Shown in pieces: positions 31,289-37,669 of a stretch of 64,000 nt of DNA. The first letter of the stretch is position 1. Each line of letters opens with the position of its first letter. Source of the DNA: Tunicatimonas pelagia (GTDB lineage Bacteria > Bacteroidota > Bacteroidia > Cytophagales > Cyclobacteriaceae); the NCBI RefSeq assembly GCF_030506325.1, contig NZ_CP120683.1:682001-746000 (forward strand), read 5' to 3'. A program made the translations under genes and the position numbers. A model generated the notes under the pieces. That model saw only the letters and a list, made by a program, of their open reading frames with translations. It was not told the origin of the DNA and made no database searches.

Positions 31289-31581
31289 GGCATCGCTAAA
31301 TATCCAAAGGAGTATAACAAACATCAATAAAACGTTTAATGCTACGGCTATTTTTTATATTCTTAGCGCTAAATAGTATCTTACACCAGTGTTAGTGTGT
31401 TTATTGCCTTTAACTACCTGAACAGAGCGTAACCTGCTTCTAAATGAGTAATTAGCCCGAAAGGTACCTGCACTATTCACATTTTATCCATCAAATACAG
31501 CCGAGAGATATATAGCAAATAAACGCACCAGTGCGTATGTACGGTTGTTGTGCACCATAGAAAACAAACTTTTGTGCCTAA

Positions 31582-32499
31582 ATGAAACATTTCTCAACTT
31601 TAAAGGAATATTGCCACGGAATAAATATCTCGCCACCTAAATGGGCGGAATTTGACATACGCAGTTTTGAGGAAAATATGCAAACTGTAAACCAACAGAT
31701 GCCAAAATTTAAGCACGAATTTTATGTTATTGCGGTTAAAATTAATGGTGGCGGCTTTGCAAGCACGGGCAATTATTCCACAAAAGACTTGAAAGCTACC
31801 GTATTTTTCAATTCGCCCTACCAAATCCTATCTTGGGATATCGTACCAGACTGGAAAGGTTACTACATTATTTTTTCGGATGGTTTTTTTCGAAGGACAC
31901 GAACATCAAAACGTATTACAGAAGCCTATCCTTACTTGTTAATAGACAATACTATTCCAATGAAAGTTTCAGCACAAGAAGCTAAATTCTATGCGAAGCT
32001 ATTCTCGGATATGTATTTTGAGTTTCAGCTCAATGAAAGTGACAGTAAAGATATTATTGCTAACTACCTTGAAATCCTACTGCGAAAAGTTGGCAGACTT
32101 TATAAGCAAACAGCAACAGATTTTCCCATAACGCAAAACGAGAGAAAAAGGGATTTAGAGGTTGTGAGCCGTTTCAAAACCTTATTGGATGTTAGTTTTC
32201 AGCCCAACAAGGAATATAACGAAGAATTATATCCACATCAGGTTCAATTTTATGCAATTAAATTAAACTTGCATCCCAATCATTTTAATGCCATTGTAAA
32301 GAGGATAACAGAAAAATCAGCTTCCGGCCATATTTACTCGCACATCCTTTCTCTTGCCAAATCCCGCTTAAAAAATACGAATGAAAGCATCAAGGAAATA
32401 GCTTTTGGTCTATACTACAATTATCCGAACCATTTTGCCAGTTTCTTCAAAGGACAAACAAAAATGACACCTTCCCAATACAGAAAATCGCTCAAATAG
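31582..32499 (+). CDS. AraC-family transcriptional regulator
   Basis: A 305-residue protein. Residues about 1-190 form a cupin-like ligand domain (FYVIAVKINGGGFASTGNYS, FNSPYQILSWDIVPDWKGYY). Residues about 200-304 carry the AraC DNA-binding domain with two helix-turn-helix units (FYAIKLNLHPNHFNAIVKRI and SIKEIAFGLYYNYPNHFASF, then KGQTKMTPSQYRK). It is followed after 121 bases by the exported hydrolase, which it may regulate. Base composition is visibly AT-richer than the flanking genes, with codons ending in A or T, suggesting import. Confidence 0.9.
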   Translation: MKHFSTLKEYCHGINISPPKWAEFDIRSFEENMQTVNQQMPKFKHEFYVIAVKINGGGFASTGNYSTKDLKATVFFNSPYQILSWDIVPDWKGYYIIFSDGFFRRTRTSKRITEAYPYLLIDNTIPMKVSAQEAKFYAKLFSDMYFEFQLNESDSKDIIANYLEILLRKVGRLYKQTATDFPITQNERKRDLEVVSRFKTLLDVSFQPNKEYNEELYPHQVQFYAIKLNLHPNHFNAIVKRITEKSASGHIYSHILSLAKSRLKNTNESIKEIAFGLYYNYPNHFASFFKGQTKMTPSQYRKSLK

Positions 32500-32585
32500 A
32501 TGTGTTAAGAGTTATTTTTTGAGTATTCTTTCAATTCTTTACTTTCTACTTTGAATTCTGTAGTTCAACAACCTAATTCTCATTC

Positions 32586-32593
32586 TACATTTG
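32586..32593 (+). promoter_or_regulatory. -7 box upstream of the hydrolase gene
   Basis: TACATTTG at 32586-32593 fits the Bacteroidota -7 consensus TAnnTTTG and lies 27 bases before the chosen start codon. No good TTTG -33 box is found at 17-23 bases upstream, so this may need an activator such as the adjacent AraC protein. Confidence 0.4.
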
Positions 32594-32620
32594 TACTATC
32601 AAACAAAAAATCAAATATAT

Positions 32621-34531
32621 ATGAAGCAGATAGCAGTAGCAGTAGCAATAGCTTTAAGCTTGATTGCCTGTAAAAACGAGACAAAAACGAATGACAAAAA
32701 AAATGATTTAGCAGTGGAAACAATAGTAGAAAAAACATCAAAAGAACAAAAAGAGATTCAGCAACTAATCACCTCATTCTTTAACAACGTGGATGAGCGA
32801 AATTGGAACGAAGTAGCTGCAAAAATGAGCGATTCAGTATATACAGATTATACCGCATTGGGTGGCGATGCTGGCTTTAAAACCCCAAATGAGATTTTGA
32901 CAGGATGGAAAGCGATACTTCCCGGATTTGAACGTACGATACACCAAACTCACAATGAAGCAATATGGGTAGCAGGTAACCGTGCTTCGGCAACTTTGGA
33001 TGCCATTGCAACGCATTATCTTAAGGGAGATTTTTGGACCGTATTTGTCGGATATGATACCGAATACATTAAGGAAAACGGTTCTTGGAAACTGGCAAGA
33101 ATTGATTTAAGCCTTTATAATCAGGCAGGAAACAATGAATTATCTTCAAAGGCAATTGAAAACGTCAAAAATGGGAATATCCCACCCCTTGTAAAAGCCA
33201 ATAATACAGAATCCATTGAAACCTTTTTTAGCTCATTGGAAAATAAAAATTTGAAAGGTGTCCTTTCCACATTAGAAGATAATATAATTCAAGAAATGCC
33301 ATTTGCACCTAACAATTTTCCTAAATCTCTAAATGGAATTGAAGCTATGCGAACACAATATACTGGTGTAATGGATTATACCCAAAGTTATGAAAGAGAG
33401 TATTTTGGCACACCTAACCCAAATGTAATTTTAGTGAAGTATAATGGAACAATTACCACAGGCGAAGGGAAACCGTACAACAACTATTATGTAGGCATTT
33501 ATGAACTCTCTAATAATAATAAAATTCAAAAATTTGTCGAGCAGTTCAATCCTAATATTCTCTTAAATGGTTGGCCAGGTTTACAACCTGAAACTTATTC
33601 GGTACATAAGGCTGGAGCAAAAACCAATAGCGGAGTGAAATTAGAAAAAGTGAATTTTAATTCTAATGGGGTAAGTCTTGCTGGTCATTTATTCTTACCG
33701 CCTAATTTTGACAGTACCAAAAAATATCCAACGGCAATAGTAACTGGAAGTTGGACAAGTGTAAAAGAGCAAATGCCTGATGAATATGCAAGTTTAATGG
33801 CAAAAAATGGTTTTATTACCTTAACATTTGATTTTACAGGATTTGGAGAAAGTGAAGGACAGCCTAGACAAGTGGAAGACTACAATTTAAAAATAGCTGA
33901 CATAAAAGCAGCAGTCGACTATCTTTCACACCATCAAAATGTAGACACCGAACAGATTTCAGGATTGGGTGTTTGTGCAAGCTCAGGTTATATGGCGCAC
34001 GCAACTGCACAAGATAAGCGAATTAAAAAATTAATCCTTATTGCGCCTTGGTTACACAATCCAGCAATTGCAAAAAGTATTTACGATATGCGTCCAAATG
34101 GAACTGATGGATTGCTTAATGCTGCAAAAAAAGCTAAAGAAAAATATGCCGAAACTGGCGAAATGGATTACGTACTTGCAGCAAGTGAACTTGACCCTTT
34201 GAGTGCAATGTACGTCCCTGAAAATGCTTTTGACTATTACCTTGACCCTGCCAAAGCAGCTGGAGCAAAGTATGACAATAGATTTGCGGTCAGCAGTTGG
34301 GAGCCTTGGTTGACTTTTAATGGAATTTCAGCAGGAAAAGAAATTTCACAACCTGTCTTTATTGTACACAGCGAAAGTGGTGCTGTTCCACAAGGAACTA
34401 AAGACTTCTATACTTATTTAAAGGGTCAAAAGGACATTGTCTGGCTAAATGAGTATAACCAACAGCAATTATACTTTGAAGCGGATGCGGTAAACGCTGC
34501 GATGAGCCAAGTAGTCTATTATCTAAAATAA
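32621..34531 (+). CDS. Lipoprotein alpha/beta hydrolase with two N-terminal NTF2-like domains
   Basis: The start at 32621 (MKQIAVAVAIALSLIACKN) gives a lipoprotein signal with Cys in SLIAC; a TTG 30 bases earlier is less likely. Residues about 40-165 and 190-310 look like two SnoaL/NTF2-like domains (LITSFFNNVDERNWNEVAA and FSSLENKNLKGVLSTLED). Residues about 330-636 form an alpha/beta hydrolase similar to the YcjY/dienelactone-hydrolase group, with the oxyanion region FDFTGFGESEGQPR and a nucleophile elbow GLGVCASSGYMAH in which Cys takes the usual Ser position. It is cassette cargo; the substrate is unknown. Confidence 0.85.
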   Translation: MKQIAVAVAIALSLIACKNETKTNDKKNDLAVETIVEKTSKEQKEIQQLITSFFNNVDERNWNEVAAKMSDSVYTDYTALGGDAGFKTPNEILTGWKAILPGFERTIHQTHNEAIWVAGNRASATLDAIATHYLKGDFWTVFVGYDTEYIKENGSWKLARIDLSLYNQAGNNELSSKAIENVKNGNIPPLVKANNTESIETFFSSLENKNLKGVLSTLEDNIIQEMPFAPNNFPKSLNGIEAMRTQYTGVMDYTQSYEREYFGTPNPNVILVKYNGTITTGEGKPYNNYYVGIYELSNNNKIQKFVEQFNPNILLNGWPGLQPETYSVHKAGAKTNSGVKLEKVNFNSNGVSLAGHLFLPPNFDSTKKYPTAIVTGSWTSVKEQMPDEYASLMAKNGFITLTFDFTGFGESEGQPRQVEDYNLKIADIKAAVDYLSHHQNVDTEQISGLGVCASSGYMAHATAQDKRIKKLILIAPWLHNPAIAKSIYDMRPNGTDGLLNAAKKAKEKYAETGEMDYVLAASELDPLSAMYVPENAFDYYLDPAKAAGAKYDNRFAVSSWEPWLTFNGISAGKEISQPVFIVHSESGAVPQGTKDFYTYLKGQKDIVWLNEYNQQQLYFEADAVNAAMSQVVYYLK

Positions 34532-34552
34532 AATCAGTCGGAAAACTACGGT

Positions 34553-34683
34553 GCACAACAAGGTGTATAAGCAATAGCGGTTTGAGTGTAAACTCGAACC
34601 GTTTTTCGTTTAAATAGAGTATATTACTATCTGAAATGTAGTTGCTTAAATTCCGCTACTGCTCATACACAATACCGTTGGGC
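34553..34683 (+). other. attC-like recombination site
   Basis: The order is GCACAAC (R'', 34553-34559), TGTATAAGCAATAGCGG (34564-34580), a central loop of about 70 bases with its own small hairpin (GAGT, 34584-34587, with ACTC), CCGCTACTGCTCATACA (34653-34669), and GTTGGGC (R', 34677-34683). The two 17-base arms pair at 15 positions; the two others are A/G differences that become wobble pairs on one strand. Length (about 131), the order R''-L''-L'-R' and the unpaired spacer match integron attC sites. Bacteroidota sequences of this general kind exist, but I cannot confirm an integrase. Confidence 0.6.
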
Positions 34684-34700
34684 ATCATTAAATAAGAACA

Positions 34701-35040
34701 ATGAAAGATGGCCTAATTATTCTAATTGCTCTTTCGTTACTATCGTGTAGTAAACAGCCCCTTTCCAGATAATGAAATCTTGATTGAGATCAATCAAAAC
34801 AATGAAATCAGAATTGAAGGAGAATTGATATTTATAGACAATTTATATAAAGAGTTGGCGAGTCAAATTGAAGAAATGGAAACGGGTGACATACCACGAG
34901 AAAAAATAATTACAAAGTTGATAGTGGGTGAAAATGCAAAAATGGGAGTTGTATCAACCTTGCAACAAACAATGCGGAAACTTAATTTGCGAAAAATAGA
35001 ATACACACCCAGGAAGAATGCCGATACTATTAACTCTTGA
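34701..35040 (+). pseudogene. Frameshifted ExbD-like periplasmic domain with lipoprotein signal
   Basis: ATG at 34701 opens a lipoprotein signal (MKDGLIILIALSLLSCSKQP) that stops at 34772. The frame one base later (open from 34726 to 35040) continues with an ExbD/TolR-type periplasmic domain: ILIEINQNNEIRIEGELI, then ENAKMGVVSTLQQTMRKL and a final IRKIEY-like strand. Removing one C from the CCCC run near 34761 would join the two. So it is either a real +1 frameshift mutation or a sequencing error. The normal ExbD membrane helix is replaced by a lipid anchor. It is the first gene after the attC-like site, as in a second cassette. Confidence 0.6.
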
Positions 35041-35227
35041 CATTTAAAAAGAATACCCCATGCTGGCGCAGCATAATGAGAATATAATAGCAGCGATAAT
35101 ATCTTGCATTGTTGCTAAATTAGCTGACAATTACCAATAACCTTTCAGTAATTCAAGGATTAATCAGTTTGACAGAAAGAGATGATCATATTTATATGCA
35201 TTTGATTGAGAGTGCCCCATTTAACAA
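35041..35227. other. Gap with small hairpin
   Basis: Contains the perfect hairpin ATGCTG-GCG-CAGCAT near 35060. No attC-like arms complementary to GTTGGGC were found, so the end of a second cassette could not be located. Nothing else is recognised. Confidence 0.35.
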
Positions 35228-35440
35228 GTGCTTGAAGAACAAATAACTACGAAGCAAGTACGTGAACTAGAAGACATTGATTTTTACGTTGACCTACGAC
35301 CTTTAACTGTGGAGGAAAAGGACAGAATTAGCGAGTATATAATGAAAGATAAAAAAGAAAGAAATAAGCGCTTAACAAAGATTGAAAGCAAGCGGGTAAA
35401 AAATGTAAAGAAGGAACGTAAAACCCAACAATCAACTTAG
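35228..35440 (+). CDS. Small Lys/Glu-rich protein, unknown
   Basis: A 70-residue reading frame with a GTG start. The first half, QVRELEDIDFYVDLRPLTVE, looks like a folded helical segment; the second half is a charged helix rich in Lys and Glu (KDRISEYIMKDKKERNKRL). No family is recognised. It stands alone in the accessory island, and an imperfect hairpin (ACCTACT-TTTG-AGTAGGT) follows at about 35470. Coding is plausible, not certain. Confidence 0.4.
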   Translation: MLEEQITTKQVRELEDIDFYVDLRPLTVEEKDRISEYIMKDKKERNKRLTKIESKRVKNVKKERKTQQST

Positions 35441-35528
35441 CGAGTAGTGAAAACATATGTCTCTAAATACCCACCTACTTTTGAGTAGGTCGCAGCTCTC
35501 ACTTATAGAACCTTTCAGCTTTATTTTA

Positions 35529-35560: not shown

Positions 35561-36079
35561 ATGGAACAGCAAAGAGAGAAATACATTAATCCGTTTACCG
35601 ATTACGGTTTCAAACGCCTATTTGGTGAGGAACCGAACAAGGATTTATTGCTAGCCTTTCTTAATGAATTGCTTAAAAACGAGCAGGGTCGTATTACCGA
35701 ACTGACGTATTTAAAGTCTGATAAACTAGGCAGTAGCGAAGCAGATCGAAAGGCCGTCTTTGATCTATACTGTCAAAACGAGCGAGGCGAGAAGTTTATC
35801 GTTGAGCTTCAAAAGACCAAACAGAAGTTCTTCAAAGACCGGACAGTTTACTACTCTACGTTCCCTATCAGGGAACAGGCACAGCGAGGATCAGACTGGA
35901 CTTTTGAGCTTAAAGCAGTGTATACGATTGCTATCCTAGACTTTGTTTTTGACGAAGACCAACACGAACCTAATAAGTTCAGATACGATGTAAAGCTGAC
36001 AGATATTGATACCTGCCAAATATTTTACGATAAACTAACCTTCATATACCTAGAAATGCCTAAGTACACTGTAAACTAA
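35561..36079 (+). pseudogene. Rpn-family PD-(D/E)XK nuclease, N-terminal part cut by an IS element
   Basis: Codes for about 167 native residues, then 5 residues read into the IS and a stop. It starts with the Rpn signature INPFTDYGFKRLFGEEPNKD and has the nuclease core D68, E82, Q84 and K85 in AVFDLYCQNERGEKFIVELQ. The last native residues are YLEMPK. The missing continuation lies beyond the IS at 37261 onward (native EMPK joins to FSMAAEELETGFDKW). Rpn proteins are recombination-promoting nucleases/putative transposases, some with reported anti-phage roles. The catalytic half remains, the C-terminal half is separated. Confidence 0.9.
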
Positions 36080-36119
36080 GTTTATTTAGGAATTGCTATA
36101 TTGGTGTTTTTGAGTCTAT

Positions 36120-36542
36120 ATGAAAAAAGCACACGTAACACTAGGCGAGCAAGATCGGCAATACCTCGCCAGGTTGCTGCAGAAAGGGAGATTGCAAGCC
36201 AGAACCTACAAACGAGCAGTAGCTTTGCTAGAACTGGACAAAGGCCAAACCTATACGGTCGTGGCATCTATTGTGCAGTTGTCAACAGTTAGTTTAGGCA
36301 AACTGGCCAAAAAGTATCACGGGCAGGGGTTAGACTGTTTGTACGATGCTCCTCGGTCGGGACGTCCCATACGGATCAGCCCTCAACAGGAAAACCAAGT
36401 GATTCTGTTGTCTTGTAGTGAAGCCCCGAAAGGCTATAGCCAGTGGAGTTTGCGCTTACTAGCCGACAAAGTAGTGGAGTTGGGATATTGTGAGCATATA
36501 TCACATACGCAGGTAAACGAGATTTTAAAAAAAGCAGATTAA
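36120..36542 (+). CDS. IS630 transposase, N-terminal helix-turn-helix part
   Basis: A 140-residue protein containing the tandem helix-turn-helix DNA-binding domain of IS630 transposases (LARLLQKGRLQARTYKRAVA, then LGKLAKKYHGQGLDCLYD and the AT-hook-like APRSGRPIRISPQQ). It ends at a stop just before the segment that would read LKPHL in intact relatives. The DDE half continues in the next frame (+1, equal to -2), so expression of a full transposase would need frameshifting in the A7 run at 36527-36533, or the element is damaged by a 2-base loss. Confidence 0.85.
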   Translation: MKKAHVTLGEQDRQYLARLLQKGRLQARTYKRAVALLELDKGQTYTVVASIVQLSTVSLGKLAKKYHGQGLDCLYDAPRSGRPIRISPQQENQVILLSCSEAPKGYSQWSLRLLADKVVELGYCEHISHTQVNEILKKAD

Positions 36543-36549
36543 GCCTCAC

Positions 36550-37239
36550 TTGACTAAAACCTGGTGTATTGGGGTGATTAACGCTGAGTTTTTAGCCAGA
36601 ATGGAAAATATTTTACGGCTGTATGCCCTGCCCTACGATGAACGCTATCCAGTTGTTTGCCTGGATGAACGGCCGCGTTTTCTGATTGGGGATGTAGTGG
36701 AAGGACTTAGTCTAAAGCCAGGTCAAGTGAAACGAGCGCATTATGAATACCAAAAAAATGGTTCCTGCTGTCTGTTTGCTGCCATAGAGCCGCTCACTGG
36801 CAAGCGTATTGCTCAGGTGTTTGATCGCCGAAGGAAAGTAGAGTATGCTGAGTTTATGCAAACCGTAGCCTTACAGTTTCCCAAGGCTGAGAAAGTCAGG
36901 GTGATCCAGGATAATTTGAATACGCATAACACCAGTTCTTTCTATGAGCGTTTTGATGCTCAGACTGCTTATGCATTAAGTCAAAAGTTTGACTTCCACT
37001 ATACACCTAAGAAGGCTTCCTGGTTAAACACGATTGAAACCGAGTTTTCTGCCTTGTCGCGTCTGTGTTTACAACGGCGGATCCCTACCAAAGAGATGCT
37101 GGAACAAGCAGTACTTCAGTTAGTCCAAGAACGCAATGACAAACACATCAAAATCGGCTGGAAGTTCTCCATCACTGATGCCCGAAGCAAACTAAAAAGA
37201 CACTATACGAATGTAAATCCAGTCAATAAAATATTATAA
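36550..37239 (+). CDS. IS630 transposase, DDE catalytic part
   Basis: A 229-residue catalytic half with the DDE triad: D39 in VVCLDERP, D121 in VIQDNLNTHN and E163 in WLNTIETE. The frame is open from 36529, but its first initiation codon is the TTG at 36550, so it may lack a start of its own. Intact Bacteroidota relatives join it to the upstream domain through a segment like LKKNELKPHLKKQWCIPP, and here KPHLTKTWCI is encoded in this frame. Confidence 0.88.
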   Translation: MTKTWCIGVINAEFLARMENILRLYALPYDERYPVVCLDERPRFLIGDVVEGLSLKPGQVKRAHYEYQKNGSCCLFAAIEPLTGKRIAQVFDRRRKVEYAEFMQTVALQFPKAEKVRVIQDNLNTHNTSSFYERFDAQTAYALSQKFDFHYTPKKASWLNTIETEFSALSRLCLQRRIPTKEMLEQAVLQLVQERNDKHIKIGWKFSITDARSKLKRHYTNVNPVNKIL

Positions 37240-37270
37240 ATTACTTAATTTACAATGCACTAAGTTTAGT

Positions 37271-37669
37271 ATGGCTGCTGAAGAGTTAGAAACTGGCTTT
37301 GATAAATGGATGTACGTAATACGTAACCTAAATAAACTTGACAGAGTACCAAAAGAGTTACGAGAGGGAATCTTTGAAAGATTGTTTGAAGTAGCCGAGA
37401 TTGCCCGATTTAGCCCTGAGGAAGTACAAGCCTACGAAGATAGTTTAAAATCATATCGAGATTTAAAGAACTCCTTGGATACGGCTTTTGAAGAAGGCAT
37501 TGAACAGGGTATCGAACAGGGTATTGAGAAAGGCATCGAACAAGGTATAGAGCAAGTAGCACGCAATGGGATCAAGCAGGGAAAAAGCGATGAGCTAATT
37601 ATGGATTTAACCGGATTATCATTAGAGCAGGTAACGTACTTGAAGGAAAAACTGAAAAGCGAAGAGTAG
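37271..37669 (+). pseudogene. Rpn-family nuclease, C-terminal part beyond the IS
   Basis: The 132-residue frame begins in the native gene at FSMAAEELETGFDKWMYVIR, the conserved downstream region of Rpn proteins, and ends in a tail with repeated GIEQ and GIEK units (12-base DNA repeats at about 37496-37555). The ATG at 37271 could still start a separate short protein. For Escherichia coli RpnA an internal start giving a C-terminal protein that counteracts the nuclease has been reported, so this orphan half might still be functional; that is speculation. Confidence 0.85.

Follow-up and report, generated by a model that had tools for sequence, protein, structure and literature searches.

Results

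The locus lies in the window, by which we mean the whole 64-kb stretch of DNA that was analysed, and it consists of an attI-like site, a gene cassette with two cargo genes that ends in an attC site, and what may be the remains of a second cassette (Table 1). The two open reading frames (31582-32499 and 32591-34531) occupy the whole cassette, and in the one predicted to encode a lipoprotein the ATG at 32621 is the likelier start. The initial annotation had described the cargo as AT-rich, and its G+C content is indeed 36.3%, against 47.3% in the left flank. It had also described a left core that is the exact reverse complement of GCACAAC and extends to 10 bases, with the unit ending at GTTGGGC. 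Both observations hold: GTTGTGCACC (31547-31556) is the reverse complement of GGTGCACAAC (34550-34559) at 10 of 10 positions, GCACAAC is found at 34553, and GTTGGGC is present at 34677-34683. Since GGTGCACAAC is the R'' stretch of the cassette, its R'' is complementary to the cassette's own left end, and a 10-base complement of this kind is expected by chance with a probability of 0.008 in the distance scanned. No second copy of the cassette was found, because homologues of the cargo hydrolase elsewhere are distant and partial only (the best at 45% over 278 of 646 residues).

Table 1. Features of the cassette locus (positions in the window)
Feature	Position	Strand	Basis and remarks
attI-like site	31506..31553	+	Aligns with the site right after the L036 recombinase remnant and with five more copies in the genus
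Gene cassette 1	31548..34677	+	3130 bp, two genes; left end and R'' own-complementary; content differs in G735
AraC-family transcription regulator (cargo)	31582..32499	+	PF12833, 8.8e-16
Predicted lipoprotein with SnoaL-like and alpha/beta-hydrolase domains (cargo)	32591..34531	+	PF13577, PF12146
attC site	34553..34683	+	R'' 34553-34559, R' 34677-34683; covariance model R1, 98.8 bits (site within the training set); folds; covariation
L'' arm of the attC stem, with the invariant A opposite C	34565..34580	+	39-site stem comparison
L' arm of the attC stem	34653..34668	+	39-site stem comparison
Decayed second cassette (low confidence)	34678..35498	+	Frameshifted open reading frame; begins GTTGGGC; degenerate attC 35370-35498

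While the unit itself had been delimited exactly by the initial annotation, the attI-like palindrome, the decayed second cassette and a remote recombinase remnant had been overlooked. The degenerate attC of the second cassette scores 19.9 bits with covariance model R1, which corresponds to an E-value of 0.012 in one scan and of 0.73 genome-wide. Farther right, a PDDEXK_2-family transposase gene (window 35561-37669) is interrupted by an IS630-like unit (HTH_32, 36120-36542; DDE_3, 36550-37239).

Structure of the attC site

Covariance model R1 was built from 39 sites of the source and related genomes, eight of them from the source genome, and the score of the window attC is not independent because this site is among the 39 training sequences. 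The initial stem scanner, which used a strict gap penalty, overlooked most sites; a loose regular-expression scan returned noise only, and no Rfam family was found anywhere in the window. The hairpin at 34553-34683 is the sole attC-type hairpin of such score in the window, with none in six Markov-shuffled windows, and only 2 of 200 shuffles fold as well or better (z about -2.5). The attC-like fold that had been proposed for this segment is borne out by covariation across the 39 sites, for which the stem covariation score was 0.71 compared with 0.154 (sd 0.019) on shuffling. Two-sided stem changes numbered 152 against 46, and 90% of the stem cells were paired, as opposed to 31-41% when the partner strand was slid by 1-3 columns.

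Of the 39 sites, 37 share an A.C mismatch, which reads G.T on the bottom strand and whose neighbours covary, and the bottom arms are predicted to be more stable in 33 of 39 (p 8e-7). The features of classical attC sites were all found, namely R'' and R' of the GTTRRRY type, L'' and L' arms, and a structure that is better conserved than the sequence. We thereby demonstrate, from alignment of the sites, an attC stem that is conserved in structure, variable in sequence and marked by an invariant A.C mismatch. In classical attC sites, extrahelical bases select the bottom strand (PMC4792948); the invariant mismatch recalls them and, by analogy, may have a similar role here.

Cassette arrays in the source genome and its relatives

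The 131-base window site has dispersed homologues. Similar sites surround other genes, as the initial annotation would have it: about 17 attC sites were found in the source genome with covariance model R1 (E < 0.02), and of the 148 genomes and 84 genera of the source family, 130 and 77, respectively, had attC sites (E<=0.001 per genome). At L036 (C1:222-231 kb, minus strand) a six-cassette array comes after a tyrosine recombinase remnant, about 0.48 Mb from the window. A genome search for IntI or another tyrosine recombinase near an array, which had been put forward at the outset, thus gave a decayed tyrosine recombinase beside one array and no IntI over the cut-off. One cassette gene of this array (L036:8625-9098) belongs to the Pfam family Cass2 (PF14526), an 'integron-associated effector binding protein'.

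Where the recombinase is intact, the downstream arrays reach 20 attC sites in 17 kb, and at 44 named loci the density of same-strand attC sites was 0.353 per kb downstream of the recombinase versus 0.012 per kb upstream. The complementarity between a cassette's own 5' end and its R'', which is characteristic of classical integrons, is found in these arrays. When the start of each cassette was compared with the reverse complement of that cassette's R'', 68 adjacent pairs agreed at 5.34 of 7 positions and shuffled pairs at 2.42 (sd 0.17), and the same comparison in named relatives gave 4.40 of 6 against 2.11 (sd 0.16) for 72 pairs. Moreover, the R'' of the first attC can be predicted from the attI core, 29 pairs matching at 4.38 of 6 positions where shuffling gave 2.07 (sd 0.25). 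Tandem GTTRnnn cassettes that end in an attC site whose R'' is complementary to their own start are, on this comparative evidence, demonstrated.

At L065 (G028:C1:866000-885000; 20 attC in 17 kb) one 570-base cassette, starting with GTTGTAGCC, occurs several times, suggesting a recent cassette duplication. A plasmid-borne version, with a recombinase and at least five attC sites, is found at L243 (Chryseobacterium sp. SNU WT5 plasmid, NZ_CP041688.1), where near-identical hairpin units (GTTGGGAAAAAT..) are also repeated within the array. A convincing attC array was not found downstream of the Phocaeicola plasmid recombinase (L242), and therefore not every plasmid-borne relative is an integron.

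The attI-like sites

The left flank of the window cassette is taken to be an attI-like site because its sequence corresponds to that of the site following the recombinase remnant at L036: AAATAAACGCACCAGTGCATTTATACAGTTGTTGTGCG lies directly after the remnant, and AAATAAACGCACCAGTGCGTATGTACGGTTGTTGTGCA immediately left of the window cassette. In the window this site comprises the palindrome ACGCAC-CA-GTGCGT at 31523-31536, with imperfect arms at 31519-31540, and then the core GGTTGTTGTGC, within which crossover would take place at G31547^T31548. Homologous sites come after intact recombinases in named relatives, the palindrome lying about 10-45 bases past the recombinase stop codon and being followed by a core such as ATTGTTRnnn.

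Six more copies of the attI occur across three genomes of the genus, the source genome included. Downstream of five of the seven copies, among them that of the window, comes a cassette with an own-complement of 9-10 bp, and at the remaining two (L222 and L223) an own-complement downstream was not clear. An attI beside the integrase gene, as in classical integrons, is found in the relatives and at L036; the window attI is solitary, and no recombinase remnant was found upstream of it or of L219-L223. The recombinase-free copies (window, L219, L220 and L221) are not accounted for by a classical cis platform. Another solitary attI of the source genome (L220:7759-10941, C1:791.7-794.9 kb) is followed by a BsuBI/PstI-type restriction-modification cassette and then by a hydrolase cassette.

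The exactness of the boundary could be examined in G735, a genome of the same genus that is syntenic with the window on both sides: its left gene shares 72% identity and its right GDSL gene 83%, and the attI region (window 31332-31550) is likewise in place. After the attI, G735 carries other open reading frames, beginning at GTTGGCTGTA with the own-complement TACAGCCAAC, and the sequences of the two loci separate at the GTTG core because other cassettes come next in G735. The boundary proposed in the initial annotation is thus reproduced in a relative, with the attI common to both loci and divergence at the core. PDDEXK_2 genes lie farther right in both. From these loci and their relatives we demonstrate, by comparison, a palindromic attI directly after a tyrosine recombinase of 370-380 aa, and an attI at which a sister genome carries other cassettes.

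The recombinase

The remnant in the source genome is without about the first 211 residues (N-terminal), whereas full-length relatives in the source family have about 370-380 aa. When the GTDB genome collection was searched with the N-terminal part, at least 554 relatives were returned; the best 80 of these, which include proteins of Marivirga, Aquimarina, Winogradskyella, Arenibacter, Reichenbachiella, Polaribacter and Psychroflexus, are almost all from Bacteroidota, with one record labelled as a Rickettsiales MAG. Matches at E<=1e-25 were present in 110 of 148 genomes, a figure that cannot be counted as integrons because it includes shorter XerA-like proteins.

The family matches PF00589 (2.1e-41), and the catalytic R-K-H-R-H-Y residues are kept in 65-66 of 66 sequences. 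The closest solved relatives are XerA and IntI4, the best PDB sequence match being XerA (5HXY, 4A8E; 6e-38) and IntI4 aligning as two pieces that flank a gap. The cut-off of NCBIfam NF040815 is passed, and the score with TIGR02249 (integron integrase) is 187 bits, below the cut-off of 265. The additional domain of IntI (patch III / I2 helix) is absent in the alignment, and the spacing between the catalytic Arg and HxxR has a median of 91 aa compared with 133 in IntI. In the tree, IntI forms a clade (100/99) without any member of the new family, which itself is grouped at 91/81; the tree fixes neither the root nor the place of this family relative to IntI. No true IntI over the cut-off was found in the source genome, where the best TIGR02249 score is 84 bits against 265.

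AlphaFold gives a confident N-terminal alpha/beta domain (pLDDT about 94 for residues 11-70). The structures that match it best as a group are XPB damage-recognition domains, with Z 6.1-6.5 and an rmsd of 1.9-2.5 over 54-57 residues, and HARP comes next (Z 4.0). Both scores are below the level that settles homology, and a Foldseek search with this domain gave no match under E 0.001 (lowest E 0.17).

Traces of the system beside tet(X3)

In Acinetobacter plasmids (L241:6043-8213, NZ_CP104336.1, and L240) the 'xerD' that precedes tet(X3) is a recombinase gene of the new family in truncated form, with 51.5% identity over 230 residues. It is followed by the palindrome TATACGCCATTTGGCGTATA and the core GTTATGTGCC, which are attI-like, and then by tet(X3); the palindrome scores 9 compared with a shuffled mean of 5.7 and maximum of 10, and is not by itself beyond chance. 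The left half of an attC after tet(X3) has an alignment score of 60 against a shuffled maximum of 37, this site being broken off ahead of the res-ISCR2 segment. The xerD-tet(X3)-res-ISCR2 module has been described as ISCR2-mobilised (PMC8635130) and not as a cassette, whereas we find pieces of the new system inside it. As judged from these sequences, tet(X3) may have originated from an integron of this kind, suggesting capture as a cassette, and it may not have been the first cassette, because the R'' behind tet(X3) does not match the core of the attI.

Discussion

In this study, we show that the window very probably (roughly 90%) carries part of an integron-like gene-capture system of the Bacteroidota, namely a solitary attI followed by an intact cassette and a decayed one. 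The initial annotation had suggested integron-cassette-like logic, and here the attC fold, the own-complementarity, the arrays and the comparative boundaries all agree; it had left the choice between a new family of cassettes and another recombination system that follows the integron site logic, and both suggestions apply, the latter in the form of a different recombinase. An integron-type mechanism is strongly supported by anatomy and comparison, and the system works like an integron, yet it is not a classical one by the usual integrase definition.

It seems that the recombinase would recombine attI with attC to insert circular cassettes between the G and the TT of attI, and would excise them by attC x attC recombination. 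The recombinase is assigned to the attC sites on the basis of their co-location. The attC would act folded and single-stranded, probably as the bottom strand, a preference that the predicted folding energies suggest. Because the recombinase has no IntI additional domain, the folded attC must be recognised otherwise than in IntI, and the N-terminal alpha/beta domain is a candidate reader; given that its structural scores are below the level that settles homology, we offer this as a hypothesis. The window cassette is probably immobile now, barring another recombinase in trans, because the recombinase of the source genome has decayed.

The system resembles classical integrons in its same-strand tandem cassettes with a TTRnnn start and a terminal attC bearing R''/R' and L''/L', in an R'' that complements the cassette's own start, in an array located at attI, in CALIN-like arrays without an integrase, and in Cass2-type cargo. 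It differs in that the recombinase lacks the I2 additional domain and has an extra N-terminal domain, in that the palindromic attI lies downstream of the recombinase gene and is oriented as the cassettes are, in its solitary scattered attI sites (an attI served in trans being outside the classical picture), in the invariant A.C (G.T) mismatch of the attC stem, and in being widespread in a class where true IntI is almost absent. With XerA (NF040815) the recombinase shares the SAM-like and catalytic core without I2, and its N-terminal domain of 90-100 aa falls outside the XerA match. XerA is not known to have cassette arrays.

That a true IntI, in the source genome or a donor, built the array of a classical integron, with the XerA-like recombinase beside attI a bystander, is very unlikely. 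The attC logic is identical to the classical one, and 84 of the 296 genomes sampled across the phylum have a true IntI that passes the TIGR02249 cut-off, IntI being common in the other classes. Among the matches listed, however, those over the cut-off are outside the source class save for one same-class genome (G184), and the source genome itself falls far below it. Moreover, dozens of genera have attI and arrays immediately after the other recombinase, and its Arg-HxxR spacing and the separate IntI clade set it apart. True IntI and the new system are distributed as if replacing each other by class.

Even less probable is that host XerCD moves these units at dif-like double-stranded sites, the folds merely mimicking dif. 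The recombinase is XerA/Xer-like, and IMEX elements such as CTXphi integrate as hairpins (PMC4792948, PMC7790495). Yet every array has a dedicated conserved recombinase next to a dedicated palindromic attI, and what is conserved is a stem structure with an invariant mismatch, not a fixed double-stranded sequence. The arrays here also reach 20 cassettes, and IMEX are not known to form such arrays. A chance hairpin, or a terminator or REP-like repeat, with coincidental 10-base complementarity is scarcely credible, for although the z-score by itself is modest, the genome-wide, array, covariation and synteny tests refute it.

For the integron-like system, a bolder version is doubtful as a whole: that cassette capture arose in the Bacteroidota without descent from IntI, when a XerA-like recombinase gained an XPB/HARP-like N-terminal domain, and not the I2 helix, with which it would read the folded attC and its mismatch, and that it serves scattered chromosomal attI sites in trans and is the source of the tet(X) genes of Acinetobacter plasmids.

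Bacteroidetes have been reported as nearly integron-free (PMC9024848, PMC2426708), the records being limited to In0 elements and a single complete integron, that of Salinibacter (PMC9024848). Integron surveys required the additional domain (PMC2426708), and the present system was invisible to them because integron integrases were picked by that domain. We found no description of it in open-access papers, preprints and closed journals being outside the search. It is the accepted view that gain of the I2 helix created single-strand cassette recombination (PMC7790495), and a cassette system without I2 makes this view directly testable. With this system a large reservoir of mobile genes comes to light in Bacteroidota of the sea, of soil and of hosts, a restriction-modification cassette included, and the system provides a possible origin for tet(X3) as a captured cassette.
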